IMG/VR virus record: IMGVR_UViG_3300046804_004848
Location: 62,001-126,000 of that record
Strand: one strand, 5' to 3'
From: a virus
DNA length: 64,000 nt
Shown here: in pieces, positions 9,331-64,000 of the stretch
How the letters are laid out: each line of letters begins with the position of its first letter
How positions within the stretch are numbered: position 1 is the stretch's first letter
Translations under genes and position numbers: made by a program
Notes under the pieces: model-generated
Seen by the model: the letters and a program-made list of their open reading frames with translations, nothing else
Database searches by the model: none
Told to the model about the DNA's origin: nothing

Positions 9331-10443
9331 TTATTTTTGGATAAACACATCATTGATTTGACGGTTTACTCTGATAAATGTAGTGCATTTAGGTAGTTGT
9401 TTAAGATTAGCTGCGCCAACATAGGTACACGTGCTGCGTAAGCCACCTAATATATCAAGTACAGTATTTTTAACTTGTCCTTTATAAGGTATTTCTACTG
9501 TACGTCCTTCGCTAGAACGATACTCTGCTACACCACCATGTGTTTTATTCATAGCAGTATCGCTACTCATGCCATAAAATTGTACGAATTTTTTAATGTC
9601 TAACATTGGTTCCATTTCATGGCTATGAGTATTATCATCATTCCAAACTGTAAGTGGATTAATTTCTGATGTATTATAATATTTTGTAATAACTTCTCCA
9701 CCACCTTCATCGTGTCCACCAAACATGCCACCTAACATTACAAAATCTGCTCCTGCACCAAAAGCCTTTGCAACATCCCCAGGACAAGTACACCCTCCAT
9801 CAGCAATAATATGTCCACCAAGACCATGAGCGGCATCTGCACATTCAATAATTGCACTAAGTTGAGGATAACCCACACCTGTTTGTACCCTAGTAGTGCA
9901 AACACTGCCTGGACCAATCCCCACTTTCACAATATCTGCTCCACGTAATATTAACTCCTGTGTCATATCTGCTGTAACTACATTACCTGCAATAATTGTT
10001 TTATCAGGCCAACGTGTTCTAACTTGTTCTACAAAGTCACCAAAATGTTCACTATACCCATTGGCTACATCAATACAAATAAATTGAGCACCAATACCTG
10101 TGATAATAGTGTTTAAGTTACGAAAATCTTCTTCACTAGTTCCTGTACTAACAGCATAATCATCTTTGTTTACATTAAATTCAGAAAAATTTTCAATGTC
10201 TTTGTTATAGGTTTTAATAAGGCAGGTAAATAACCTATGTTGACTTAATGTTTCTGCCATTTTTAAAGTGCCAACACCATCCATATTAGCAGCCATAATA
10301 GGAATACCTTCGTATTCATAACGGCTGTGTTTAAACCTATAAAATCTTAGCAAATCTACTTCTTTACGACTTGATAGTGTGCTTCGCTTTGGACGAATCA
10401 ATACATCCTTGAAATCAAGTAAGATTTCATTTTCAATTCTCAT
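9331..10443 (-). CDS. guaC: GMP reductase
   Basis: 370 residues that follow enterobacterial GuaC almost throughout: [48 protein letters not shown] with catalytic Cys182, [20 protein letters not shown], and TFIRVNRQ near the end. GuaC reduces GMP to IMP with NADPH, feeding purine salvage. It is ~23 residues longer than E. coli GuaC; the extra residues lie after GGHDEGGGE (about residues 255-280). The absence of CBS domains and the overall match separate it from IMP dehydrogenase. Confidence 0.95.
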
Positions 10444-53570: not shown

Positions 53571-53824
53571 TTTTTTAACAAAAAATAAACAGTTTCAAGC
53601 TCAACTAATAATTTTTCTAAACGTTCATCAGTCTTAGCTAAATCTCTACAATTTAAATAATCTTCTAAATTTAAACCTGCACATTGTTTACCAAAATCCC
53701 ATTCCTTAGTAGTTACACCATTATGAACAGATTTATAAATTCTTTCCTCACCATTTTCAGTAAGGAAAGAATTATACGCACCTATCTTATTGGCACTGAA
53801 AGTATTAGACCAAAATATGTCCAT
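53567..53824 (-). CDS. hypothetical protein, 85 aa
   Basis: 85 residues, no domain recognised. Its start overlaps the stop of the VWA gene by 1 nt, so it belongs to that operon. Confidence 0.6.
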   Translation of the reverse strand: MDIFWSNTFSANKIGAYNSFLTENGEERIYKSVHNGVTTKEWDFGKQCAGLNLEDYLNCRDLAKTDERLEKLLVELETVYFLLKK

Positions 53825-55125
53825 TATTTTTTATGATCATCATAAATTGCCCATGTTCCAAATGGAGGATTAGGGTTTGGATCACCATGAATAATCCATG
53901 TTGTATCGCAATAATTTGCATCACCCCATGAACCACAAGGATATCCATCAGTGAATACGACTAAGCGTTTTGGTTCAATATTTTCATCTTTAAGAAATTT
54001 AAAAATCGCATCAAAGTCTGTACCTCCACCACCTTTTAAAACATAATCAGTGATGCTATCCATGTTTTCAGAATTAAACTCTTGTAAGTTATAGCACTTG
54101 GTATCAAACGAAAACACGTGAATCTTATAATTAGTAAACATATCCATGATACCTTGAATTTCACTAAGGAAATCCTTACCTTGTGCATCATTGATACTAC
54201 CACTCATATCAACCCCTACGCAAATATCAATTTCTTCACTAAAATTCATAGAGGGTAAAATAGCATCAAGATGCCAACCACGCTTGCTAGGACGTAAGAA
54301 AGTATAATCATCACGCATAGTAGAAACAATATTAGTTTGAAGCAATTCTCTCCAAGGCATTTTAGGATCGGTAATATCATTAATCATGCGTTCAACACCC
54401 CTAGGAATTGAACCTGCTTCACTGCTACGTGCGGCATTGATGATATTTTGTTTGATTTCCTGACGCAATTCCTCACGCTCAGCATCAGTCATTTTCTTAG
54501 GTCCGTTCTTACTGCGACCTGTTTTATCCATATCTCCATCATCATCACTATCGGACTCACCTTCACCATCACCTTCAAGGTGCTCATCAATCATTTTATC
54601 AATGAGTGCGTCCATACTAATGGTTTTGACGTTCTTCATCAAATCATCATAGATTTCTTCAGATGATTTACCATCATACTTAGGTTCATACAAGCATGGT
54701 ACAGTGGTAATAAACTGACCTACATTGTGTCGTTTAAGGTCAGCGTTTACTGCGTAATCATTTGCAATGTTAAACATTTGACGGTCACGGTGACCGATCC
54801 TACCAATGTGATCATATACAACGTGAAGTACTTCATGACCAACAAGAAACTCTACCTCACCACGTGTAAGCTTCTTGATAAAACGACTATTGTAATAAAA
54901 ACGCTTACCATCAGTTGCTGCTGTAGCTAACCATTCATCCCCATTGATAAGTTTCAAACGGGTAGCAAGATTACCAAAAAACGAATGTTTGAGCAGCAAT
55001 GCTACACGTGCGCTTGTAAGAATGTCACGTGCTTCACGATCAAGCACAGGGTCAAACGGACCGATAAGGTCTTCAAATTCTTTTTTGAGTTTTTTGTTTT
55101 CTTTGGTATTTGCAGTGGTTGTCAT
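53824..55125 (-). CDS. VWA-domain protein with metallopeptidase-like N-terminus
   Basis: 433 residues from ATG 55125 (MTTTANTKEN), preceded by AAAGGAACATTT. The N-terminal HEVLH (97-101) with NIANDYAVN as further ligand region resembles DUF2201-type metallopeptidases. An acidic linker is at 185-200. The VWA domain has MIDAS DMSGS (306-310) and FTDGYPCG. Such proteins pair with MoxR AAA+ ATPases, and one lies directly upstream. Role: metal-dependent chaperone or assembly factor (inference). Confidence 0.85.
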   Translation of the reverse strand: MTTTANTKENKKLKKEFEDLIGPFDPVLDREARDILTSARVALLLKHSFFGNLATRLKLINGDEWLATAATDGKRFYYNSRFIKKLTRGEVEFLVGHEVLHVVYDHIGRIGHRDRQMFNIANDYAVNADLKRHNVGQFITTVPCLYEPKYDGKSSEEIYDDLMKNVKTISMDALIDKMIDEHLEGDGEGESDSDDDGDMDKTGRSKNGPKKMTDAEREELRQEIKQNIINAARSSEAGSIPRGVERMINDITDPKMPWRELLQTNIVSTMRDDYTFLRPSKRGWHLDAILPSMNFSEEIDICVGVDMSGSINDAQGKDFLSEIQGIMDMFTNYKIHVFSFDTKCYNLQEFNSENMDSITDYVLKGGGGTDFDAIFKFLKDENIEPKRLVVFTDGYPCGSWGDANYCDTTWIIHGDPNPNPPFGTWAIYDDHKK

Positions 55126-55150
55126 AAATGTTCCTTTACGTAATAGCACC

Positions 55151-55179
55151 ATCATAACATAGATACTATTTTAAATCAA
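55151..55179 (-). promoter_or_regulatory. possible sigma70 promoter of the VWA gene
   Basis: TTGATT at 55179-55174, 17-bp spacer, TATGAT at 55156-55151 on the minus strand, 26 nt before ATG 55125. Confidence 0.5.
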
Positions 55180-56704: not shown

Positions 56705-56717
56705 ACCATTACTTATA

Positions 56718-56744
56718 AAAAAAGAGGGCATAGCCCCCTTTTTT
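56718..56744. terminator. strong bidirectional Rho-independent terminator after the porin gene
   Basis: Minus strand: AAAAAAGGGGGC-TAT-GCCCTCTTTTTT, a 12-bp stem with one mismatch and a T-run on both strands. Confidence 0.85.
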
Positions 56745-56766
56745 AACCACCTAAATTTAGCAAAAT

Positions 56767-57786
56767 TTAGAAACGATGACGTACACCAACACCTGCTACA
56801 CGAGTATCAGCCCATGCTGCATTGGTACGGTTAACTCCGTCATTACTGTAATTAGTATCACGCACTGCTGCATACATGTCTGTACGCTTGCTTAACGCAT
56901 GTGACAAACCAATTGCCCATGAAGATGTTTCTGCTGACTTATTGCCAACAAAATTGTGCTCATGCTTGGCATAACTAACCATTGCTGTATTTGCACCACC
57001 TAATGGCATGCTTGCACCAACACTGTAACCTGTATCTTCTTTGGTTACTGCGTCACTATGCTGTACACGATTCCATTGTGCAAAAACTTTTGCAGCTTTC
57101 ATGCTGTATGATGCACCAACAATTGTTGAACTCATGCTTGGCTTACCTGCACCTTGCTCAACATCTTGCCATGTTGCTGTAAGACCGATTGGTCCTGCAA
57201 AGTACATTGCACCAACACTTTTACCTGCTTGCTTAGTGCCTGTTGCATCATCTACAACACCTGCACTATAAACACCTGTAAGTGCTAATGGACCTGCATT
57301 AGTTTTAACTAAGACACTGTTGTTCCAACCTGTGTCAGAACCACCTCCACCTAAATTAAAATTACTTACACCATAACGTGCGGTAACAATAGGAGAGAAA
57401 ACAAAACTATCACCTAATGCATTAAATGCAATGGTTGAAATAAACATTGGAGTTGTAACACGACCAACCTGAATTTCACCTGCTTTGCTTGCTAAACTAA
57501 CATAGGCATTTCTTGCGTAAAATGTATCACCATTAAAACGACCTTGTGCTGCTGTGTCAGGACGTAAAAATGTCTCAAGAACTGCTGTTGCAGTAACATC
57601 ACCAAGTTTTTCAGTTGAACGTACACCAATATAACTTGTAGTCATACCACCTGAACTTACTTGATTTGTAGTTTGCTTTGCTGATGTTTGTCCATAAAAC
57701 GCATCCGCTAATCCATAAATGGATGTTTGTGCAGTAGCAACTGAACAAGCACTTGCAACCAACGCTGCAATTAAAAGTTTTTTCAT
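56767..57786 (-). CDS. Gram-negative outer-membrane porin
   Basis: 339 residues, a complete trimeric-porin type. Signal peptide MKKLLIAALVASACSVATAQ (cleaved after residue 20), mature start TSIYGLADAFYG, strands such as SYIGVRSTEKLGDVTA and RNAYVSLASKAGEIQVGR, and a final Phe (VGVRHRF), required for insertion by the BAM machine. It resembles porins of Burkholderiales/Methylophilales. It has a late-type promoter and a strong terminator of its own. A phage-made porin could replace the host's receptor or restore uptake during infection (inference). Confidence 0.9.
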   Translation of the reverse strand: MKKLLIAALVASACSVATAQTSIYGLADAFYGQTSAKQTTNQVSSGGMTTSYIGVRSTEKLGDVTATAVLETFLRPDTAAQGRFNGDTFYARNAYVSLASKAGEIQVGRVTTPMFISTIAFNALGDSFVFSPIVTARYGVSNFNLGGGGSDTGWNNSVLVKTNAGPLALTGVYSAGVVDDATGTKQAGKSVGAMYFAGPIGLTATWQDVEQGAGKPSMSSTIVGASYSMKAAKVFAQWNRVQHSDAVTKEDTGYSVGASMPLGGANTAMVSYAKHEHNFVGNKSAETSSWAIGLSHALSKRTDMYAAVRDTNYSNDGVNRTNAAWADTRVAGVGVRHRF

Positions 57787-57835
57787 ACTTAATTCCTCTT
57801 AAATTAAAAAATACACATTAAAATGTGTGCCTAGA

Positions 57836-57842
57836 TATTTAC
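57836..57842 (-). promoter_or_regulatory. T4-type late promoter of the porin
   Basis: GTAAATA on the minus strand, 49 nt before the porin ATG. The leader has an ACACAT-TTTA-ATGTGT hairpin (57812-57827) and the ribosome binding site AAGAGGAATTAAGT. Confidence 0.5.
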
Positions 57843-57897
57843 TTATGTTTAAAATTAACCACAAATAAACAAATTTCTTACGTAATAACTACTAATA

Positions 57898-58154: not shown

Positions 58155-58161
58155 TATTTAT
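58155..58161 (-). promoter_or_regulatory. T4-type late promoter, leaderless spacing
   Basis: GATAAATA on the minus strand ending at 58155; 5 nt to ATG 58149. Confidence 0.65.
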
Positions 58162-59339
58162 CAATTTTCAAGTTGATTTACTAAATTCATTGCAGTTGCA
58201 GGACTTATTGTCCAACCTAAATGTCCATGTCCTGTATGATAGTAAATATTTTTAACTTTACTTTCACGCACAATGGGCATCATATTTGGAGTCATTGGTC
58301 GCAAACACGCCCAACTACTATAACAGCTTGTATCTATACTTGGAAAGTTTTCATTTATCCAATTTAATAATGGCTCAATTCTACTTCTTGTAATGTCACG
58401 ATTATAACCACATAATTCTGCTGTACCTGCTACACGCAATCTTGTTCCTAATGTTGCAGTTACAATTTTTGCTTGATCATCCAACAAACTTACTTTAGGC
58501 ATAGCATTATAAGACTTTACATCTTGGGCATCAATGGTAATACTATATCCTTTTACAGGATATATAGGTAAACTTTCACCTAATACTTTAGCCAAGTGAA
58601 CACTTTCAACACCTGCTGCTATAACTACTTTATCAAATCCACCAAGTAATAACCGTGGATCATTAATTCCATTATTAAATGAAACGCATGCATTATACTT
58701 AAGACGTATTGTATCAAGTAAACCCTTACAAAACTTATGAATATCACCAACCCAATCATCTTGTGTCCATGCTGCTCCAATTAAACCTTCCATATCTTTT
58801 AGGTTTGGTTCAAGGTCAATTATTTCTTTAAGATTAGTAATTGTTTTCCATTCACACCCATGATTTTCATAGATATCTTTGGCATCAAAAGCAGCATTAA
58901 AGTATTTTTGTTCTTTGTAAATATGTAAAATACCACTTTTGCTTTGATCAAATTCTAAATTTTCATCTTTTATAATTTGTTTATATAACGCTCTACTTTC
59001 TAGACCAAGCTTAATAGTTTCAATCGTATTTTGTTTATAAACATTGCTAGCAGTATGTTGTAAAAATTTGATAATCCATTTTATTTTATCTAAGTCTAAT
59101 GTAGGGTGAATCAATAATGGAGCATCTTTTTTTAACATCCATTTTAATCCTTTCAAAACATTAGCCCATGTTGTCCATACTTCGCTATTGCTTACACTGA
59201 CTTGTCCACCATTAGCATAGCTTGTACGCATTGCAGCGTAGCGTTCTTGTTCAAAAATGGTAACATCATGTCCACGTTTAGACAAAAAATATGCAGGTAC
59301 TACTCCTGCAATACCTGCACCAATAATTGCTATACGCAT
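58161..59339 (-). CDS. dadA: D-amino-acid dehydrogenase-like FAD oxidoreductase
   Basis: 392 residues. FAD-binding IIGAGIAGVVPAYFL with GxGxxG, then YANGGQVSVSN (the DadA SxANxGQ region), YPVKGYSITID, RVAGTAELCG, and LRPMTPNMMPIV and HTGHGHLGWT near the end. These blocks follow E. coli DadA. It deaminates D-amino acids to 2-oxo acids, passing electrons to quinone. In a phage this might recycle D-Ala from peptidoglycan or feed respiration (inference). It lies 3 nt below ahpD. Confidence 0.85.
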   Translation of the reverse strand: MRIAIIGAGIAGVVPAYFLSKRGHDVTIFEQERYAAMRTSYANGGQVSVSNSEVWTTWANVLKGLKWMLKKDAPLLIHPTLDLDKIKWIIKFLQHTASNVYKQNTIETIKLGLESRALYKQIIKDENLEFDQSKSGILHIYKEQKYFNAAFDAKDIYENHGCEWKTITNLKEIIDLEPNLKDMEGLIGAAWTQDDWVGDIHKFCKGLLDTIRLKYNACVSFNNGINDPRLLLGGFDKVVIAAGVESVHLAKVLGESLPIYPVKGYSITIDAQDVKSYNAMPKVSLLDDQAKIVTATLGTRLRVAGTAELCGYNRDITRSRIEPLLNWINENFPSIDTSCYSSWACLRPMTPNMMPIVRESKVKNIYYHTGHGHLGWTISPATAMNLVNQLEN

Positions 59340-59342
59340 TTA

Positions 59343-59858
59343 TTATCCCACTAATAATTTACATGCTGCGTTCATAACTGCTGCAATACGACCAATATCA
59401 CGTAACTGTTCAACAGTATAACCTTCTTTCTTAAGGGTATCATAATGTGCTTTTACACAAAAATGACACTTACCAACAATACTTGCACATAAACTATACG
59501 CTTCAAAATTAGCTTTAGTTGTGCCACCATGTGTGCCAATAACATTCATGCGTAACTGAGCAGGTAATCCCTTTAAATTTGCATCACCTGTCATTTCAAC
59601 ATACGGATACCATACATTATTTTGTGCCATTATACTTGCTGCTGCCATAGCTGCATCACGTTCTTTAGTATCTTGTATTACCCCATATAATCTTTCTACA
59701 ATACCACCATTACCTGTTGCTGCTGCTGCGGCTAGTGCGCAACATTCTGCTACAATTGGATCTAATGTTGAACGTAAAATTACTGCATCTAAATTTAACT
59801 TAATATCTTTAGCATAATCAGGTAAACCTTCTTTTAATACATTAACCCAAACCGACAT
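59343..59858 (-). CDS. ahpD: AhpD-like alkylhydroperoxidase
   Basis: 171 residues. The CxxC site is in GKCHFCVKAHYD with the His 4 residues on, as in mycobacterial AhpD (Cys130-Cys133-His137). The N-terminal helical repeat matches. AhpD reduces the peroxiredoxin AhpC, which is encoded nearby at 60652-61215. The start overlaps the terC 3' end by 17 nt. Confidence 0.9.
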   Translation of the reverse strand: MSVWVNVLKEGLPDYAKDIKLNLDAVILRSTLDPIVAECCALAAAAATGNGGIVERLYGVIQDTKERDAAMAAASIMAQNNVWYPYVEMTGDANLKGLPAQLRMNVIGTHGGTTKANFEAYSLCASIVGKCHFCVKAHYDTLKKEGYTVEQLRDIGRIAAVMNAACKLLVG

Positions 59859-60528
59859 TACTTTCTCCTTTATGTTTCCTTATTCTAGTCCTGTAGTATT
59901 GTTTCATAGTTAAAACTACAGCTAGAACATACGGTAAACCATATTCTGACCAATCATGCAATGGATCAATATACTTGTCAACAAATGGTTCACCAATAAT
60001 CATCTTAAATGCAACTGCGTATAATACAAAAGCACCAATAAAAATAGTATCAGGATATTTTTCAAGCAATTTAGCAACCATTGTACTACCAAATAGTATA
60101 ATAGGTACACTTACCAATAAACCTATAATGATTAATGTCCAATTACCACCTGCTGCACCTGCAATGGCTAATGCATTATCTAAACCCATAACTGCATCTG
60201 CCATAACAATCGTACCCATAGCTCCCCAAAATGTCATAGAAGCCTTTATATCAGTATGGTCGCTGTTATTGGAGGTAAGTCTCCAAGCAATCCATATGAG
60301 TAAAAGTCCTCCTACAAACCGTAGCCCAGGTATCATCAATAAATATGTTAGCGCAGCAACACATAAAAAACGCACTGCAACAGCACCAAATGTTCCCCAA
60401 AACATTGCACGTTTACGCAAATGTTCAGGTAAATTCTTTGATGCCATTGCAATTACTAGTGCATTTTCACCACCTAAAACAATATCAATAAGAATAATTG
60501 CACCAAGTGCCCACAAAAACTCAATCAT
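59842..60528 (-). CDS. terC: TerC-family membrane protein
   Basis: 228 residues with about seven spans. IDIVLGGENALVIAMAS and ADAVMGLDNALAIAGAA are the paired TerC motifs with acidic and Asn residues in the membrane. TerC proteins are linked to tellurite resistance and manganese export. It is located between the AhpC and AhpD genes, so it belongs to a stress-linked unit. Confidence 0.92.
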   Translation of the reverse strand: MIEFLWALGAIILIDIVLGGENALVIAMASKNLPEHLRKRAMFWGTFGAVAVRFLCVAALTYLLMIPGLRFVGGLLLIWIAWRLTSNNSDHTDIKASMTFWGAMGTIVMADAVMGLDNALAIAGAAGGNWTLIIIGLLVSVPIILFGSTMVAKLLEKYPDTIFIGAFVLYAVAFKMIIGEPFVDKYIDPLHDWSEYGLPYVLAVVLTMKQYYRTRIRKHKGESNVGLG

Positions 60529-60652
60529 CTTTGTCTTTCTTATTGGATTTATCGTATAGGTAATTACCTAACATCACTGCTATTACTACACTAATAAAAA
60601 AGAAAAGAAATTTTACCTGATACACATCAAAAAGTGTTTCATATTCAAACAT
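60521..60652 (-). CDS. small membrane protein, 43 aa
   Basis: 43 residues (MFEYETLFDVYQVKFLFFFI...) with one span at about 14-32 and a charged tail. ATG overlaps the ahpC stop as TAATG and the 3' end overlaps terC by 8 nt, so it is part of that operon. Confidence 0.6.
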   Translation of the reverse strand: MFEYETLFDVYQVKFLFFFISVVIAVMLGNYLYDKSNKKDKDD

Positions 60653-61215
60653 TATAATGTCTCGCCACCAATAGAACGATTACATGCACAAAGTTCGCCT
60701 GTTTGTAATGCGTCAAGTACACGCAATGTTTCTTCAGGTGAGCGACCAACATTTAAATTATTTACTGTAACATGTTGAATAACATTGTCAGGATCAATTA
60801 TAAATGTAGCACGTAATGCAGCACCTGCAGGGTTATAAAAGACACCTAGTTGTTCAATAAGACTTAAATTTACATATTTCTCACCATCATAATGCTCACG
60901 TTGAGTATCAGCAAACTGAGTATGTGTAATTTTCTGTAAATCAGGATGTGCTTTTTGCCATGCTACTTTACAAAATTCGTTGTCTGTACTACCTGTGAGT
61001 AATACTGCATCACGATCTTCAAAGTCTTTGGCAAGTTTATCATAGGCTACAATTTCTGTAGGACATACAAAAGTAAAATCTTTTGGATAGTAAACGATAA
61101 TTTTCCATTTACCTTCAAAACTTTTTTCTGTGATTGTGAAGAATGCATCTTCAGGTTGATGGGGTTTAACCCCTGTAATTGCAAATGGTGTGAGTTTGTC
61201 ACCAACTGTTTTCAT
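60652..61215 (-). CDS. ahpC: AhpC-type peroxiredoxin
   Basis: 187 residues. Peroxidatic Cys51 in DFTFVCPTE and C-terminal Cys176 and Cys178 in GELCACNR, the three-Cys arrangement of mycobacterial AhpC that is reduced by AhpD. That partner is encoded at 59343-59858. It removes hydrogen peroxide and organic peroxides. The ribosome binding site is AGAAGGAGAAAATAA. Confidence 0.95.
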   Translation of the reverse strand: MKTVGDKLTPFAITGVKPHQPEDAFFTITEKSFEGKWKIIVYYPKDFTFVCPTEIVAYDKLAKDFEDRDAVLLTGSTDNEFCKVAWQKAHPDLQKITHTQFADTQREHYDGEKYVNLSLIEQLGVFYNPAGAALRATFIIDPDNVIQHVTVNNLNVGRSPEETLRVLDALQTGELCACNRSIGGETL

Positions 61216-62456: not shown

Positions 62457-63374
62457 TTAGCCACCAAAAGGAACAAATTCTACACCTGTAGTTTGTAAAC
62501 CAACTAAATCAATTTGTGCTAATAACTCAGGGCGACTTGCGGCAACCATAAGTACATCAGCTTGTGAGTAACCATACTTTTCAATTGCATCAACTACTAC
62601 AGCGATTTCATCATACGTACCATCACGATTGAATACATTTTTCCATACATGTTTTGCAAAAGTTGCATTAGATGTGCTACCTGCGTCTGCTTTGTATTGG
62701 TCACTTGTTAAAATTTTGGCTGCAATTTCTTTCATGCTCCAACCAAGTGTTTCATCTAAATAGATTCCCGCACCAATAAGTTCAGGTGTTACATCATTTT
62801 TACCTAAAGCAGCAGCTAAAAGTGATATAATTTTACCCAAATCTGTATCAACTGTATCAAATGCAAGATGTTTGTCATCAAACTGTACTCGTTCATGATC
62901 ATCTAACACAAACGTTAAATTGCTTACAAGATGACTTGTAGCAATGATATCATGATTTGTATATGCTAGAGAATAATCAGAACTTTTGCCATTGATTTTA
63001 TAACTATCAATACCTGTAGAACCTTCTACATTAATATTAACATCAATTACACCATCACCAACACGACCATTACCTACCGTACCAAATGTAGCAACTTTAC
63101 CACCAATTCCTACTGTACCAACAGTAACAATAAGATTATTAGTTGGTGCAACTCCACCAAGCGAAGTCCCAGGAATCGTTATCGTATCCCCTGCTTGATA
63201 CCCTGCTCCACTACTTGCAACTGCTGCATCTAATGTAACAGTGTATTTTCCATTGGTTTTGACTACATCAAACTTTGCTCCAAGATCGGTTCCCCCTGTT
63301 AATCCTGTAACATTATCATAGGTAGCATTAATTGGATTATCTGTAATTGTAATTGTTGTTGTGCCTTTAGCCAT
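62457..63374 (-). CDS. virion/adhesin-like protein with DUF4214-like C-terminus
   Basis: 305 residues. The N-terminal half is Gly/Thr-rich beta repeats (GAGYQAGDTITIPG) as in marine phage structural proteins. The segment HERVQFDDKHLAFDTV, then WKNVFNRDGTYDEIAV and ADVLMVAASRPELL, resembles the DUF4214 region of secreted adhesins. Late-type promoter and AAAGGACAC ribosome binding site. Probably on the virion surface. Confidence 0.65.
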   Translation of the reverse strand: MAKGTTTITITDNPINATYDNVTGLTGGTDLGAKFDVVKTNGKYTVTLDAAVASSGAGYQAGDTITIPGTSLGGVAPTNNLIVTVGTVGIGGKVATFGTVGNGRVGDGVIDVNINVEGSTGIDSYKINGKSSDYSLAYTNHDIIATSHLVSNLTFVLDDHERVQFDDKHLAFDTVDTDLGKIISLLAAALGKNDVTPELIGAGIYLDETLGWSMKEIAAKILTSDQYKADAGSTSNATFAKHVWKNVFNRDGTYDEIAVVVDAIEKYGYSQADVLMVAASRPELLAQIDLVGLQTTGVEFVPFGG

Positions 63375-63488: not shown

Positions 63489-63530
63489 CTATTAGGCGTT
63501 TGCTGCTAATAGATATGTATCGTCGTTTGC
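63489..63530 (-). other. tmRNA-encoded proteolysis tag reading frame
   Basis: Twelve codons from the resume codon GCA (63530) to TAA TAG: A-N-D-D-T-Y-L-L-A-A-N-A. The first three residues and the Y-x-L pattern match bacterial tags. The C-terminus is A-N-A rather than the usual L-A-A, and the tag is two residues longer than that of E. coli. Confidence 0.85.
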
Positions 63531-63626
63531 AGATACTTATTTTGCTAGAATTACGTTCTTCGCCTATCGTGTTGTCCATATCCGTACTTGTTACCCCGTC
63601 GAAACCAAGTCTAGCCCATCATAAGT

Positions 63627-63878
63627 TTACTTTATGTATCTGTTAATAAGTTTAATACCTGCATACGTTCCTAACACAGTAAACATCATTTTGAATACTG
63701 TCATCCAATCTGTAGCATTACTTAGCGTTATCTTAAGAGGACCTGCTTCTATAGAATCCGTTGTTTTAGGTAAAATAAACCATTGTGCATAATAAACAAC
63801 AAGATCCCAGGAATACTGTAACACAAAATATGCAGCTATAGATATTAAAATGCCTGTAAATAACCCTTTACGATACAT
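63627..63878 (-). CDS. small two-span membrane protein inside the tmRNA intervening segment (holin candidate), 83 aa
   Basis: 83 residues (MYRKGLFTGILISIAAYFVL...) with a long hydrophobic N-terminal segment (about 6-36) and a second span near 60-77, ending NRYIK. The ribosome binding site TAAGGTG lies directly after the CCA of the tmRNA acceptor piece. The stop is 9 nt before the first base of the tag-coding piece. Size and topology suit a class II holin, and the spanins are encoded elsewhere in the window, but no holin family match can be shown. Confidence 0.75.
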   Translation of the reverse strand: MYRKGLFTGILISIAAYFVLQYSWDLVVYYAQWFILPKTTDSIEAGPLKITLSNATDWMTVFKMMFTVLGTYAGIKLINRYIK

Positions 63879-63890
63879 TAAATCACCTTA

Positions 63891-64000
63891 TGGTGGACTA
63901 GGGGGGATTTGAACCCCCGTCCGCAGCACTTTTCCATCAACTTCATACAACAATACTACTATTTATTTACCGCTTGGAATCTTACCTTCTACACCTTCAA
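63891..64000 (-). ncRNA. ssrA: tmRNA, acceptor piece of a circularly permuted gene (5' end cut by window)
   Basis: Read on the minus strand it ends GCGGACGGGGGTTCAAATC, then CCCCCTAGTCCACCA. This is the tmRNA T-arm (GGAC, 5-bp stem, TTCAAAT loop) with 3' acceptor strand CTAGTCC, discriminator A and encoded CCA at 63891. GTAGTATTG upstream parallels E. coli GTAGTACCG. A plain tRNA is excluded: no GGACTAG lies ~65 nt upstream. Its partner strand GGGCTAG is instead found downstream at 63617, which shows the permuted order. Confidence 0.9.

Follow-up and report, generated by a model that had tools for sequence, protein, structure and literature searches.

An old phage-only lineage of Burkholderiales-type porins and its possible part in purine import

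The auxiliary genes of phages mostly encode cytoplasmic enzymes or single phosphate-binding proteins. Among phage-encoded proteins of the outer membrane, Lc/NmpC of the temperate lambdoid phage PA-2 is an enterobacterial porin that is tied to receptor exclusion. On virus contigs from an oxygen-depleted zone, a virus-encoded OmpL porin adjoins glnK-amtB (PMC8115048), and BFVD holds OmpC-like barrels of uncultured Caudovirales; with these, phage porins as such are already on record. An earlier note on the DNA studied here had mentioned a methylophage that carries a porin, but none was found in the literature: the methylophage Melnitz, of host OM43, encodes the curli CsgGF outer-membrane pore, and the word porin is absent from its description (PMC9004378).

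The phage and its porin gene

The DNA analyzed here (the window) is a stretch of 64,000 nucleotides, positions 62001-126000 of a 137,959-base IMG/VR record. Its large terminase and the one of Pseudomonas phage PA5oct share 51% identity, and the record also carries the phage hallmarks UvsX, SSB, and DNA polymerase as well as 19 tRNAs; the contig covers 138 kb of a PA5oct-like myovirus with an AT-rich genome (about 65%). The earlier note had taken the porin to point to a betaproteobacterial host, and a host of Burkholderiales type is supported, both by the placement of the porin among Burkholderiales porins (see below) and, independently of the porin, by permuted beta-type tmRNAs. The window has a permuted (two-piece) beta-type tmRNA at 63492-63952 on the minus strand, with an 83-aa ORF between the pieces and the putative tag ANDDTYLLAANA, and RF01850 (beta_tmRNA) was found in two porin-bearing relatives, one with the Burkholderia tag ANDETFALAA. 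The tmRNAs of L027 and L028 are permuted without an inserted ORF, and that tag is present in one of these. The phage porin also provides a marker by which large phages of such hosts can be recognized.

The porin gene (56767..57786, minus strand) encodes 339 aa from ATG to TAA. As read from the sequence, the product begins with a Sec signal peptide of about residues 1-19 (MKKLLIAALVASACSVATA followed by QTS..., i.e., cleavage between ...VATA and Q) and ends in ...GVRHRF, an aromatic beta-signal with a C-terminal Phe. Residues 7-315 match PF13609 (Porin_4, Gram-negative porin) with an E-value of 2.3e-37 and 129.9 bits against a cut-off of 27, while PHROGs and NCBIfam hold no family for this protein. 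The claim that a complete porin is encoded on a phage genome thus stands. An AlphaFold2 model built with 16 viral homologues has 16 strands at moderate confidence (pLDDT 62.7, pTM 0.64) and an L3 of 41 residues (112-152) with a short helix. A Foldseek search of this model against solved structures returned BpsOmp38 (E 2e-18) and Omp32 as the top matches, which together with the model points to the 16-stranded general porin fold, and a profile of the wider subfamily retrieved Omp32 first among solved sequences.

The region upstream of the gene (57787..57856, minus strand) contains a T4-late-like motif, GTAAATATCT, a leader hairpin (ACACAT..ATGTGT), and an AGAGG ribosome-binding site. RTAAATA is enriched in the upstream intergenic DNA of the window genome (33 observed vs 8.4 +/- 3.2 expected), and a search for a sigma-70 consensus upstream of the window porin found none. 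Late expression in infection is therefore suggested for the window lineage only, and the late-type promoter that the earlier note ascribed to the gene does not extend to other lineages, in which the porin is promoterless behind a gene of cluster C7 or is preceded by sigma-70-like candidates that we rejected as being at chance level. The leader hairpin described in the same note is present but has little statistical weight, its z being -2.15 over a 44-nt stretch and about -0.6 over 60 nt; the relatives L031 and L038 also have a hairpin, similarly placed but of another sequence. The terminator is as strong as had been claimed: the intrinsic terminator AAAAAAGGGGGCTATGCCCTCTTTTTTT (56715..56770, minus strand) has a dG of -19.5 and a z of -3.8, and almost every relative has an intrinsic-type terminator behind its porin gene.

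Upstream of the porin on the same strand lie a D-amino-acid dehydrogenase-like FAD enzyme (58161..59339), which is two genes away and confined to the window's lineage, and a cassette at 59343-61215 that encodes an AhpD-family protein (59343..59858), a TerC/YjbE-family membrane protein (59842..60528), and an AhpC-like peroxiredoxin (60652..61215). The cassette is common to the window and several other porin-bearing phages. It was rejected as a porin-specific partner because AhpD is very common in phages: the viral stretches with a relative number at least 596, and the porin is missing from 76 of the top 80.

Several other neighbors are recorded here as observations in their own right. The cluster C7 gene of the window (62457-63374, minus strand) encodes a 305-aa protein with no Pfam match and only a weak baseplate-type PHROG match; its counterparts immediately precede the porin gene in L028 and L030 and are found close to it in other relatives. 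The gene at 53824-55155 (minus strand) matches PHROG 1314, "HNH endonuclease", while Pfam assigns it to the DUF2201 metallopeptidase/VWA type, and it is paired with a MoxR-type AAA protein. Between the porin and the MoxR gene of L026, and in this relative only, the opposite strand carries an insertion of two pairs of related ORFs (445/252 and 196/172 aa). The phage genome also encodes a nucleotide-cyclase-like domain (L019:11654-12883, plus strand; PF00211, E 3e-7).

Origin and spread of the phage porins

Scans of 2.9 million viral contigs yielded 20 IMG/VR contigs with porins 70-100% identical to the window copy, a count that leaves out five 25% matches. The porin of 3300043446_004379 is identical to the window copy, and this contig and the window phage probably represent the same population. 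Among the isolated-phage records of INPHARED there was no match to the phage porin, and a bacterial subfamily member gave one weak, unrelated contig. Across 84,980 species genomes, a pattern scan retrieved one distant bacterial relative (33% identical) and no close copy, and when genomes of Gammaproteobacteria and Burkholderiales were searched by profile and by protein, the best bacterial porin was about 39-43% identical (~39% by blastp).

A careful phylogeny unites the 19 viral rows in a single clade of phage sequences only (100/100), whose stem measures about 1.2 changes per site; the clade is nested in a 71-row subfamily of Burkholderiales porins with a support of 96/96. Within the subfamily, it does not pair with the guanine-deaminase clade in particular, and L046, which appeared as its sister in a quick tree, lost that position in the careful one. 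The absence of mixing with host sequences in the tree and the identity of at most ~43% rule out a recent acquisition from the host, so the label "host-type" in the earlier note fails if it is taken to mean a recent host copy. The same note had held that a phage-only clade unrelated to any host porin would tell against its view; half of this was found, since the clade is phage-only but is nested in a host subfamily.

The gene occurs in at least four unrelated phage neighborhoods, and phage genes flank it on both sides on all contigs long enough to show this. A median dN/dS of 0.14 among the phage porins indicates purifying selection. Between the window and L031, the porins are 75% identical while the MoxR and VWA genes are 58-62% identical, which would fit either phage-to-phage exchange of the porin or a stronger constraint on it. 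Across 80 loci with relatives of the MoxR gene, the porin is present in 6/6 of the nearest lineage and in 0/74 of the others, and is therefore accessory. All porin relatives are metagenomic, many are fragmentary, and the lineages are non-independent. As judged from these comparisons, the porin is an old phage-resident lineage of the Burkholderiales subfamily that has spread among several unrelated large betaproteobacterial phages.

A second group of phage porins (L334-L337) consists of another subfamily porin, about 42% identical to the bacterial H_L087; in L335 it adjoins a dCMP deaminase and lies near a TctC periplasmic receptor. A tree test of a single origin for both phage porin groups neither established nor rejected it (p-AU 0.256).

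The subfamily is set apart from ordinary PF13609 porins by an L3 signature, NPFGDSFxFSP...D[ST]GWxN, which the phage copies largely keep, together with R83, R92, and R109; by this signature and the 96/96 clade, the phage porin belongs to the subfamily. Its surface differs from that of the bacterial members, with an L5 shortened to 8 residues (bacterial median 19) and an L8 extended to 11 residues (2 in bacterial members), and both virus-specific forms are conserved inside the viral clade. Within this clade, the conservation of most loops matches that of the strands, across very different contexts and with no hypervariability, so nothing in the surface loops hints at an arms race. These patterns are those of a maintained channel whose surface has changed but is stable, and the L5 deletion and L8 insertion may reflect a changed function.

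Purine genes and the proposed role of the porin

The 3' end of a gene for an AtzT-like BMP/PnrA purine-binding lipoprotein lies at 63963..64000 on the minus strand, 6 kb upstream of the porin and on the same strand. The full gene (63963-65087 in window numbering) runs past the window end, corresponds to positions 125963-127087 of the genome (L022:464-1588), and encodes 374 aa with a PF02608 match of 193 bits. The closest solved relative is AtzT (PDB 6pi5; E 1e-120), which binds guanine with a Kd of about 110 nM (PMC6834077). Six of the eight ligand-site residues of AtzT are kept in the phage protein (S97, F98, E165, N169, W194, and N218), and the two differences, Y45W and N220D, are also found in 3s99, a structure deposited with adenine; the conserved purine-site residues thus mark the phage protein as AtzT-like. 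Just upstream of the BMP gene, L022:1917-2315 (minus strand, cluster C27) encodes a small glycine-rich protein of secreted type that is conserved near the BMP gene in L023, L032, and L034.

Relatives of this lipoprotein are rare in viral contigs (22 loci), and they tend to occur where the porin does. PF02608 was found on 6/14 porin-positive and 0/20 porin-negative phage records (Fisher p 0.002), some of the 8/14 porin-positive records without a BMP gene being fragments. Conversely, 6/9 BMP-positive viral contigs of at least 50 kb encode a PF13609 protein, which in one of the six is a different, smaller barrel. The two genes are 1.6-14 kb apart and not adjacent, and neither a permease nor an ATPase gene was seen beside the phage BMP gene. 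The window also encodes a GMP reductase of the GuaC type (9331..10443, minus strand; PF00478), present on 4/9 porin-positive and 2/20 porin-negative records and seen only in the window's own lineage. Because many porin-positive records are without a BMP gene and the GMP reductase belongs to one lineage, the number of independent lineages behind these counts is two or three.

The bacterial members of the subfamily point in the same direction. A guanine deaminase or related amidohydrolase is encoded within 1.5 kb of 11/48 subfamily porins, compared with 0/30 control porins and 0/11 outgroup porins; the eleven fall in one clade and are therefore not eleven independent events. On other branches, L113 and L046 are separate deaminase-type cases at distances greater than 1.5 kb. 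Individual neighborhoods include an 8-oxoguanine deaminase and an MFS transporter (L113), a guanine deaminase (L122), and a PRK12393 amidohydrolase with a biuret amidohydrolase (L118), and in L355 the order is adenosine deaminase, three Bmp proteins, two ABC permeases, an ATPase, xdhA, xdhB, xdhC, guanine deaminase, and porin. Seven host porins of the subfamily have a nearby BMP protein 53-64% identical to that of the phage. The subfamily thus recurs in bacterial purine clusters made up of a BMP-ABC importer, xdhABC, guanine deaminase, and porin. No guanine deaminase or related amidohydrolase was recognized adjoining the phage porins, and many bacterial members are likewise without one.

The earlier note had offered altered uptake as one of several roles, and this is the option favored by the co-carried BMP gene, the GMP reductase, and the purine clusters in which the bacterial relatives sit. 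If expressed late, as the motif in the window lineage suggests, and inserted into the outer membrane, the phage porin would admit small nitrogenous solutes to the periplasm, where the AtzT-like lipoprotein of the phage would capture purine and pass it to an ABC permease of the host. Salvage enzymes of the host would convert the purine to GMP, and the phage GMP reductase would then convert GMP to IMP, toward the adenine nucleotides needed by the AT-rich genome. That the porin is a functional, phage-adapted channel is very likely, and import is probably its main role. For purines as the main substrate, we would put the chances at about even; an identity of about 40% does not fix the substrate of a porin. 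The explanation that we prefer as a whole, a phage-owned channel for nutrient import in infection and specifically for purine scavenging, is likewise evenly poised. More tentatively still, the three proteins could form a dispersed, envelope-spanning route in which the porin, a guanine/adenine-binding lipoprotein, and the GMP reductase cooperate to bring guanine-type bases into the infected cell and turn them into adenine nucleotides for the AT-rich phage genome.

The channel could also serve general or phosphate-type uptake. As an Omp32-like, possibly anion-selective porin, it would let phosphate or organic acids diffuse in after host shut-off, with no special link to purines. We consider this rather unlikely, although Omp32, an anion-selective porin, is the closest solved sequence to the subfamily, the conserved residues include the basic R83, R92, and R109, and a TctC receptor is encoded near the second group of phage porins. 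In addition, at L020:5850-9119 (plus strand; genome 45850-49119) the phage has a gene for a PhoX alkaline phosphatase beside one for a PstS-like phosphate-binding protein, which makes phosphate an alternative substrate. Nevertheless, a linkage of PstS to the porin was rejected, with 4/9 porin-positive vs 4/20 porin-negative records and no clear enrichment; the L3 signature is that of the purine-cluster subfamily, unlike ordinary Burkholderiales porins; and co-carriage with a purine-type BMP protein is the stronger association.

Roles at the cell surface itself, which the earlier note had also raised, seem less probable again. The phage porin would here displace or dilute a host porin used as receptor, or its loops would be unbindable by competing phages, much as for Lc/NmpC of PA-2, and the virus-specific L5 and L8, being conserved in the viral clade, and a late-type promoter would fit such late surface remodelling. 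However, conservation in the extracellular loops is close to that in the strands, without hypervariability, and receptor replacement or superinfection exclusion leaves both the periplasmic purine-binding protein and the kept pore signature unexplained. Least credible is passive cargo or an artefact: the gene would have come from a bacterium only recently, or the contig would be chimeric, and the porin would have no role for the phage. The patchiness of the porin, found in 6/80 relatives retrieved via the neighboring MoxR gene, would suit this, but it is already contradicted by 20 contigs in at least four contexts, with phage genes on both sides where these are long enough, by the phage-only clade with an omega of 0.14, and by the lack of a close bacterial copy in the 84,980 species genomes.

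If purine import is the role of the porin, these phages would have an auxiliary import system that extends inward from the outer membrane as far as the interconversion of nucleotides. They would be re-plumbing the envelope of the host so as to supply the synthesis of their genomes, with a concrete candidate substrate.

Comparison with known systems

The closest relatives of the phage porin are the porins of Burkholderiales purine clusters, which belong to the same Pfam family, carry the same L3 signature, and form one clade with it (96/96). The phage clade differs from them in its identity of at most about 39-43%, its shorter L5, its longer, conserved L8, and the lack of an adjoining deaminase. 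Omp32 of Delftia (Comamonas) acidovorans (PDB 1e54/2fgq) and BpsOmp38 (PDB 8jto) have the same 16-stranded porin fold but are about 20% identical to the phage porin in structural alignment, have a different L3, and are encoded by chromosomal genes. Lc/NmpC of PA-2 is, like the window porin, a phage-encoded outer-membrane porin, but one that is enterobacterial and belongs to a temperate phage. Melnitz CsgGF is likewise a phage-encoded outer-membrane pore, but it is a curli secretion channel and not a porin. The viral OmpL (PMC8115048) is, as here, a virus porin co-carried with uptake genes; however, it is of Bacteroidetes type, and its companions are ammonium genes. As far as we have searched, what is new in the present case is an old, conserved phage porin clade tied to a purine-binding importer.
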